The translations under genes were made by a program, and so were the position numbers. From Eubacteriales bacterium (GTDB lineage: Bacteria > Bacillota > Clostridia > Christensenellales > MB2-83): a stretch of DNA of 32,868 nt. Positions 16,802-24,154 of this stretch are shown here, piece after piece. The DNA is taken from positions 1 through 32,868 of the forward strand of contig JAHAZM010000014.1 of the NCBI GenBank assembly GCA_018385275.1, written 5' to 3'. The notes beneath the pieces are model-generated. The model was not told the origin of the DNA, did no database searches, and saw only the letters and a list, made by a program, of their open reading frames with translations. Each line of letters starts with the position of its first letter. Position 1 is the stretch's first letter.

Positions 16802-16813
16802 TGGACAAAAAGA

Positions 16814-17157
16814 ATGCGAGACACGCCTGTAAGCCGAGTTCTGTCGGGGATGACCATCTATCTACGCCTTTCGTTGCCGAAAGGCTCCAGCGATTACCCG
16901 AAAGCGTGACGGGCCGCCACATCTGCTTTCCTATCAATCTTGCATCAAGCGGGGTTTACATGGACGCGTCGGATCTCTCCGCCGCCGGTGAGCTCTTACC
17001 TCGCCTTTTCACCCTTACCCGTAAACGGGCGGTATATTTCTGTTGCACTTTCCTTGGAGTCGCCTCCACCGGGCGTTACCCGGCGCTCTGCCCTATGATG
17101 CTCGGACTTTCCTCGTCCGGTCTTGCGACCGTCCGCGGCCATCCAGCGTGCTCGCAT
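16814..17157 (-). ncRNA. rnpB: RNase P RNA, bacterial type A, about 344 nt
   Basis: The catalytic RNA that removes 5' leaders from pre-tRNAs. The universal P4 strands are visible on the minus strand: GAGGAAAGTCCGAGC (complement of 17100-17114) and ACAGAACTCGGCTTAC (complement of 16829-16844). The ends pair as helix P1: 17157-17146 with 16826-16814, twelve pairs with one bulged base, which fixes the boundaries. A TTGACA-17-TATGAT promoter places the start at about 17157 and a terminator follows the 3' end. Its location after the dnaG-sigA block is common in Clostridia. No ORF in this interval is credible. Confidence 0.95.
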
Positions 17158-23718: not shown

Positions 23719-23846
23719 GCCGGTGTGATGGAATTGGCAGGTCTCGCCTGCGGACTCGGTCACGCGACGGCTCTGACAGTCCACCGGACTGTCATTCACT
23801 GCCGTCGCGCAGCTTCGCTTCGCTGCGCCGCGTGCTGGACTCAAAA
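23719..23846 (+). pseudogene. Broken tRNA-Leu copy interrupted by a hairpin-rich insertion
   Basis: Bases 23719-23740 are identical to the first 22 nt of the intact tRNA-Leu at 23875, covering the acceptor 5' strand and most of the D-arm. The next 90 bp (23741-23830) are foreign and made of consecutive hairpins: GCAGG/CCTGC at the start, element A in the middle, and CGCAGC/GCTGCG at the end. Then 23831-23846 match 16 nt of the intact gene through the anticodon (23898-23913), so only one tRNA base is missing at the junction. From 23847 to 23874 the sequence no longer matches: the 3' half of the anticodon stem, variable arm, T-arm and acceptor 3' strand are absent. It cannot make a normal tRNA. 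Confidence 0.75.
23763..23809 (-). repeat. Structured palindromic element, copy A (minus orientation)
   Basis: Outer stem of 9 bp (23763-23771 with 23801-23809) and inner stem of 8 bp (23775-23782 with 23786-23793) with a 3-nt loop. Read on the minus strand: outer arm, AGTGAAT, GACAGTCC, loop GGT, GGACTGTC, AGA, outer arm. It shares architecture and fixed bases with element B at 24021-24061. I know no name for this family. Confidence 0.7.
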
Positions 23847-23874
23847 CCAAGAGGCATATCAAAACGGAATATTC

Positions 23875-23961
23875 GCCGGTGTGATGGAATTGGCAGACGT
23901 GCTGGACTCAAAATCCAGTCCTGGCAACAGGGTGCGGGTTCGACCCCCGCCACCGGCACCA
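23875..23961 (+). tRNA. tRNA-Leu(CAA), class II, CCA encoded
   Basis: A complete 87-nt class II tRNA. The acceptor stem GCCGGTG (23875-23881) pairs with CACCGGC (23951-23957), then A and encoded CCA (23959-23961). The anticodon stem CTGGA/TCCAG encloses loop CTCAAAA, anticodon CAA (reads UUG). Long variable arm with CCTG/CAGG stem. T-arm GCGGG-TTCGACC-CCCGC is perfect. It is followed directly by a terminator and is the only intact tRNA gene in the window. Confidence 0.95.
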
Positions 23962-23998
23962 CGAAAAAAAGCAGGTCAACATGCCTGCTTTTTTCTCT
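23939..23998 (+). repeat. Direct repeat, copy 1: tRNA-Leu 3' end plus terminator
   Basis: 60 bp beginning in the T-loop and running through CCA and the terminator. It recurs at 24095-24154 with 2 mismatches (58/60). Confidence 0.9.
23965..23994 (+). terminator. Terminator of tRNA-Leu
   Basis: AAAAAAGCAGG (23965-23975) pairs with CCTGCTTTTTT (23984-23994), loop of 8; the T-tract is part of the stem. Confidence 0.85.
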
Positions 23999-24020
23999 GC
24001 TTAAAGGGGGGGCGAACAGA

Positions 24021-24061
24021 GGCGGAAATGAATGACGTGCCGGTGGCACGTCAGAACCGCC
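24021..24061 (+). repeat. Structured palindromic element, copy B (plus orientation)
   Basis: Outer stem GGCGG/CCGCC (24021-24025 with 24057-24061) and inner stem GACGTGCC/GGCACGTC (24034-24041 with 24045-24052), loop GGT. It shares with element A the TGAATGAC entry, the CCGGTGG apex and GTCAGA, while three successive inner base pairs differ and are all compensated. Further hairpins follow (24056-24062 with 24072-24078, and CACG/CGTG at 24080-24091). Confidence 0.7.
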
Positions 24062-24094
24062 GGCGACCAAACGGCGGTCACGCCGCCGTGCGAA

Positions 24095-24154
24095 TTCGAC
24101 CCCCGCCACCGGCACCACGAAAAAAAGCGGGTCAACAGGCCTGCTTTTTTCTCT
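24095..24154 (+). repeat. Direct repeat, copy 2: orphan tRNA-Leu 3' end plus terminator
   Basis: Duplicate of 23939-23998 with 2 mismatches, including CCA and a working-looking terminator (24121-24150, GCGGG/CCTGC with one G-U pair and six T). No tRNA 5' half precedes it: element B and other hairpins do. The T-stem 5' strand is GCGAA instead of GCGGG and would not pair, so this is a remnant. Confidence 0.85.

Follow-up and report, generated by a model that had tools for sequence, protein, structure and literature searches.

Within the 32,868-nt stretch of DNA analysed here (the window), an intact tRNA-Leu(CAA) lies between two hairpin elements, A on the minus strand and B on the plus strand (Table 1). 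A preliminary description had placed two such hairpins on either side of an intact tRNA, and their positions, their opposite strands and their common plan were all confirmed: an outer stem, a TGAAT bulge, GAC-nnn-CC, a GGT loop, GG-nnn-GTC, AGA and again the outer stem. The three inner pairs are AGT/ACT in A and GTG/CAC in B, and their changes are indeed compensated. When the window was searched for the pattern TGAATGACNNNCCNNNGGNNNGTCAGA with up to three mismatches, two matches were found, both with 0 mismatches, against an expectation of 0.02 in shuffled windows. No other place with the core at up to two mismatches was found in the window genome (1.64 Mb, 87% complete). Both hairpins also adjoin tRNA fragments that are direct repeats, as had been described: a 5' fragment at A, and at B a 3' fragment together with the terminator, which are repeated behind B with 93% identity over 70 nt at a spacing of 156. 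Elsewhere in the window, positions 16813-17154 of the minus strand match the class A RNase P RNA (295.8 bits).

Table 1. Features of the tRNA-Leu(CAA) locus in the window. Fold z-scores are relative to shuffled sequences; R1 is a covariance model of the element.
Feature	Position	Strand	Basis
Partial tRNA-Leu copy, 5' fragment (acceptor 5' strand and D-arm), 22 nt	23719..23740	+	Direct repeat; identical to 23875-23896
Element A, second hairpin P3 (TGACCGAGTCCGCAGGCGAGAC, minus strand) and right end GAGAC	23741..23762	-	Many copies with the same GACCGAG..CGAGA end
Element A, core hairpin P2	23763..23809	-	Fold z -6.0; model R1 match 66.5 bits
Element A, small hairpin P0 (CGCAGCGAAGCGAAGCTGCG), at the place of T' in tRNA-tail copies	23808..23827	-	Sequence and fold; P0 hairpins variable in alignment
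Remainder of partial tRNA-Leu copy (CGTGCTGGACTCAAAACC), anticodon-arm fragment, about 21 nt	23831..23848	+	Direct repeat; same arrangement in L119
Intact tRNA-Leu(CAA)	23875..23961	+	ARAGORN; Rfam tRNA 51.7 bits
Terminator-like hairpin H1 with T run	23964..23995	+	Sequence; repeated at about 24120-24151
T', decayed inverted tRNA-Leu tail (GGGGGGGCGAAC)	24006..24017	+	Sequence; relatives with intact inverted tails, e.g., L150
Element B, core hairpin P2	24021..24061	+	Fold z -4.9; model R1 match 60.4 bits
Element B, second hairpin P3 (GACCAA-ACGGCGGTCACGCCGCCGT)	24065..24089	+	Arm also present at two tRNA-Ala loci elsewhere in the genome; fold
Second tRNA-Leu tail copy (TTCGACCCCCGCCACCGGCACCA)	24095..24117	+	Direct repeat; duplicated target by comparison with filled and empty sites elsewhere
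Second terminator copy	24120..24151	+	Direct repeat D1, 93%

We distinguish two forms of the element. The tRNA form consists, in order, of T (the tRNA tail), H1 (a terminator-like hairpin), T' (the tail of the same tRNA, inverted), the core hairpin P2, a second hairpin P3 and again T. In the second form (P0-P2-P3), T' gives way to the small hairpin P0, and GACCGAG-hairpin-CGAGA(C) forms the right end. Element B, behind tRNA-Leu(CAA), represents the tRNA form and has a T' that has decayed; by analogy, its insert would extend from 23962 to 24117 (156 bp). Element A belongs to the second form, lies on the minus strand and interrupts an incomplete 5' copy of tRNA-Leu(CAA) in the region of the D-arm. 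A and B represent two forms of one family and probably arose in separate events rather than as one inverted pair. Their inverted orientation, as first described, is real, but their birth as a single inverted pair was rejected: the two forms differ and so do their flank settings. At another locus (L119:3142-3375), a tRNA-Leu(CAA) is accompanied by the element and partial 5' copy that occur in the window (254 bp, 83%), and the two neighbourhoods have no protein genes in common. Since the arrangement is shared and the neighbouring protein genes are not, the explanation is either movement of the entire tRNA module or a hot spot at this site. A partial 5' tRNA copy like the host of A, without the core hairpin, was also observed upstream of tRNA-Ser(CGA) in the window genome (L355, G000:C11).

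An exact-pattern scan identified the core motif at 120 places or more in GTDB genomes. Among the matches listed, the carriers were gut Clostridia/Oscillospiraceae except for one Pseudohongiella record (L079), which was rejected as a member from outside Clostridia; its arms are unpaired, and it is a chance match. The core was found in 19 of 2.9 million IMG/VR contigs, and searches of known phages and plasmids gave no match at E 0.01. The preliminary description had proposed a covariance model as a means of finding further copies, and model R1 found many in relatives: 17 of the 297 genomes of the window's order and 11 of the 391 of the class had matches, as did all 12 genomes of the genus g53, in which copy number ranged from 5 to 20. 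Overall, genomes carried 1-20 copies, a range in which weak copies may have been missed by the first-look filter. One carrier, Ruminococcaceae bacterium HV4-5-B5C (L060), is a 477-kb contig of high coverage without a MAG label, which suggests that the element is probably no artefact of binning.

Two readings had been offered for the compensated changes, namely that selection acts on the structure or that the palindromes form a mobile family reliant on its fold, and the copies in relatives, their own compensated changes and the filled and empty insertion sites described below are all in line with this proposal. Across 56 sequences, both partners had changed in 114 cells and a single side in none, and the covariation score reached 0.387 compared to 0.085 in shuffles. 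We also collected 237 distinct elements with a pattern that left the stem free and used TGAAT and AGA as anchors. In this set, 55 different 8-bp stems stay paired and the unpaired TGAAT/AGA bulge is constant, in part because these letters served as anchors. Other bulges occur, such as TACAGA/GA at tRNA-Ala. Over the 237 elements, the mismatches of the 8-bp stem amounted to six G.T and ten A.C. A constraint at the level of RNA should favour G.U over A.C. Because G.T was not the commoner of the two, it looks from these sequences as if the constraint on structure acts on DNA rather than on RNA. Copies of the same locus in different species were slightly more alike than copies of other loci (0.72 vs 0.66). 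Concerted evolution within genomes was rejected, as similarity was 0.655 within the same genome and 0.660 between different genomes.

The tRNA form is strongly tied to its target gene. A same-strand tRNA ends 40-130 nt upstream of 35 of the 128 exact copies, whereas placement at random within these loci would give 0.49; the preference for tRNA neighbourhoods, suggested as a check in the preliminary description, is therefore about 70-fold. Downstream of tRNAs, 36 copies are on the same strand and one is on the opposite strand. When all loci are considered, 109 elements lie behind tRNAs of 30 anticodons, most of them at 66-81 nt. Their left flank scored 12.6 against the inverted tail of their own tRNA and 7.7 against those of other tRNAs, with the own tRNA giving the best match in 70 of 109 cases; for the right flank and the direct tail, the corresponding scores were 17.1 and 7.4 (95 of 109). 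At L150, the inverted tail is a perfect 23 nt that extends from the T-loop through the CC of CCA, and CCA is retained in 46 of 65 right tail copies. Each unit contains two long palindromes, T-H1-T' and T'-P2-P3-T, and tandem units are spaced at about 137-160 nt. The occupied tRNAs of g53 mostly have anticodons beginning with C (CAC, CTG, CAG, CGC, CTC, CCA, CTT, CGG, CGA and CCT).

We compared filled and empty sites between congeneric genomes. At tRNA-Arg(CCT), G213 presents a 151-bp insert in which H1, T', P2 and P3 are followed by a further tail of 22 bp; the congeners G676 and G080 have another terminator directly after the tRNA. The flank to the right of the G213 insert aligns with the post-tRNA flank of the empty site in G676 (76/95), and no alignment with this flank was found for the G213 sequence that follows the first CCA. 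This indicates that H1 came in with the insert and that the right-hand tail and terminator predate it; H1 differs from the original terminator at this site. The tRNA thus stays whole and gains a new terminator when the tRNA form inserts. That congeners differ by a 151-bp insert, with 22 bp of the tRNA tail duplicated around it, implies that the family is mobile, a conclusion drawn from one clean filled/empty locus that was worked out, in a collection where most genomes are MAGs. At tRNA-Arg(ACG), the unit is missing from one congener (G669) and present as a remnant in another (G672).

These comparisons also bear on the idea of a selected structured RNA, a tRNA 3' trailer or a small RNA for tRNA processing or regulation. 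Such an RNA would fit the covariation, the strand shared with the tRNA in nearly all tRNA-form copies and the frequent retention of CCA, but the element lies behind the tRNA terminator and is present or absent at the same tRNA in congeners. Its stems show no excess of G.U, its distribution in the order is patchy, the second form is found away from tRNAs, and a search of Rfam with the elements of four loci gave no family, even at E values up to 5. We regard this explanation as improbable.

In the second form the right end is precise (GAGA or GAGAC), and its copies sit in other palindromic sequences or in tRNA sequences. Many copies are inserted in CTCCCCT..AGGGG repeats, and filled and empty host repeats were found on one contig (L129). 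A frequent host is the double-hairpin repeat GGCTCCCCT..AGGGGAGCTGTC..TGACTGAGGGG, which is abundant in L129, L125, L022, L172 and others from gut Clostridia and may itself constitute a separate mobile family. The left half of one copy (L057:103-129) lies in a CTCCCCT repeat and the right half in a tail of tRNA-Glu, as at L003; either the two forms have recombined here or the assembly is chimeric. A near-threshold match to the Gut-1 RNA was observed at L022:4213-4287 (42.1 bits, cut-off 50).

We then searched for candidate enzymes. The 151-bp insert holds no ORF and hence encodes no site-specific recombinase. All-against-all comparison of the ORFs near 138 loci revealed no mobile-gene family and no recurrent neighbour gene, and the largest clusters consisted of ORFs read through the repeats themselves. 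A reverse transcriptase was rejected as a partner, PF00078 being present in two of the 12 genomes of g53, all of which carry the element. A Y1/REP-type transposase, which the preliminary description had suggested looking for, does not track the element either: no Y1 (PF01797) RAYT was found in G000 (the window genome), G213, G060 or G122, of which G213 and G060 are complete and copy-rich, and just two of the 12 element-positive genomes of g53 have one.

Like REP/REPIN sequences and their RAYTs (PMC3116915, PMC3733652), the element is a short, non-coding and likely mobile palindrome with a bulge, located in intergenic regions. GTAG or GGAG stands before TGAAT in 53 of 89 non-redundant copies, and this adjoining motif could be seen as the tag of a REP/REPIN-type element moved by a Y1 RAYT. 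That reading is highly improbable in view of the distribution of Y1, the location of GTAG inside the outer stem rather than at the end of the element, the low copy number, and the placement at tRNA tails with inverted repeats that match the target. The element thus departs from REP/RAYT systems on two or more counts. The survey of REP sequences (PMC3733652) makes no mention of Clostridia or Firmicutes.

With moderate confidence, we consider A and B to be members of one non-coding palindromic mobile family, with a tRNA form and a second form, that would move as a folded single strand. T would pair with T' to form a double-stranded copy of the target tRNA tail, and this duplex would be capped by H1 on one side and by P2 and P3 on the other. 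The folded form would then be inserted or copied into a tRNA tail by a host enzyme or an unlinked one. The unpaired TGAAT/AGA may act as the recognition feature, in which case the stems need only pair.

Plain site-specific recombination offers no reason why T' should correspond to every newly occupied tRNA. Copying by fold-back at the terminator and at the P2/P3 hairpins would account for this correspondence but not for the arrival of the core at a new locus, and both processes may be at work. Our best guess is that T' originates from a fold-back single-strand intermediate. More specifically, and only tentatively, this intermediate could be a closed, dumbbell-like single strand with T and T' paired and with H1 and P2+P3 as caps, whose T' is re-copied from the recipient tRNA at each site by fold-back synthesis. 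If so, the element would adapt its inverted repeats to each host gene by rewriting them, and rolling copying would yield exactly the T-H1-T'-P2-P3 arrays that are seen.

Alternatively, no dedicated enzyme may be needed if both the inverted and the direct tail copies result from slippage during replication and from template switches, at P2/P3 and at the hairpin of the terminator. The elements would then be by-products of fold-back synthesis and would spread through recombination between T-loops, which are conserved. The two palindromes of each unit are what snap-back copying would give, no gene is linked to the element, and hairpin-templated correction would leave G.T and A.C mismatches equally rare, as observed. 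Pure slippage, however, carries no fixed sequence to new loci, and here one core with the same unpaired TGAAT/AGA is found at 30 anticodons and at other sites. Neither the precise right end of the second form nor the difference between H1 and the original terminator at the filled/empty site is expected from this process, which appears rather unlikely.

The family resembles several known systems in part. Prophages, ICEs and IMEs that integrate in tRNAs share the insertion at the tRNA tail, the direct duplication of the tail, the restored tRNA function and the tandem accretion; in keeping with them, a direct duplication of the 3' end surrounds the insert and the tRNA is intact. In contrast to them, the element is about 150 bp long, free of genes, present at 30 anticodons and carries the inverted tail of each tRNA that it occupies. 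Integron attC sites (PMC4792948) and the folded attP of filamentous phages are alike by analogy only, through variable stems, conserved unpaired bases and the folding of one strand into a double-stranded copy of the target. The match of the element is to tRNA tails instead, and no attC boxes or dif-like site were seen by eye in the element alignment. Fungal and sponge mitochondria contain double-hairpin and repetitive hairpin elements (PMC4478555, PMC2800124), which are also gene-free mobile hairpins whose mobilising enzyme is unknown. These elements are organellar, and we know of no target-derived inverted tRNA tail among them. Rickettsia palindromic elements and bacterial MITEs are likewise short palindromic insertions without a gene. 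MITEs share their terminal inverted repeats with a parent transposon; the inverted repeats of the element come from the target tRNA, and the ORFs near its loci yielded no candidate parent.

A literature search by topic and by motif letters returned nothing relevant, which is weak evidence of absence given that few subscription papers were covered. Together with the lack of an Rfam match, this agrees with the earlier remark that no named element with such a consensus is known. We seemingly have a very short, undescribed mobile family of gut Clostridia, which we file as a variant among gene-free palindromic mobile elements. If this is right, tRNA genes of many gut Clostridia carry about 150 bp of gene-free mobile DNA that spares its target by providing a new tail and terminator, and its inverted repeats are copied from the recipient gene, which is unusual for a transposable element. 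This would pose a clear question about single-strand DNA mobility, and the congeneric pairs of filled and empty sites make the mechanism testable. Many copies lie near contig ends, which suggests that tandem copies of the element at tRNA genes may break or confuse assemblies and annotation.

Finally, three more units of the same architecture but with other core hairpins were found at tRNA-Ala genes of the window genome. Two are in tandem at tRNA-Ala(GGC) (L333, G000:C7), where a different terminator comes after the last tail; the third, whose core is unrelated, is at tRNA-Ala(CGC) (L331, G000:C58). These units share the P3 arm of element B, which indicates that the architecture is wider than the TGAAT core. 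At tRNA-Arg(CCT) of G669 (L370), the same plan apparently holds another cargo: a terminator and an inverted tail precede a hairpin insert of entirely different sequence, after which the tail is repeated.
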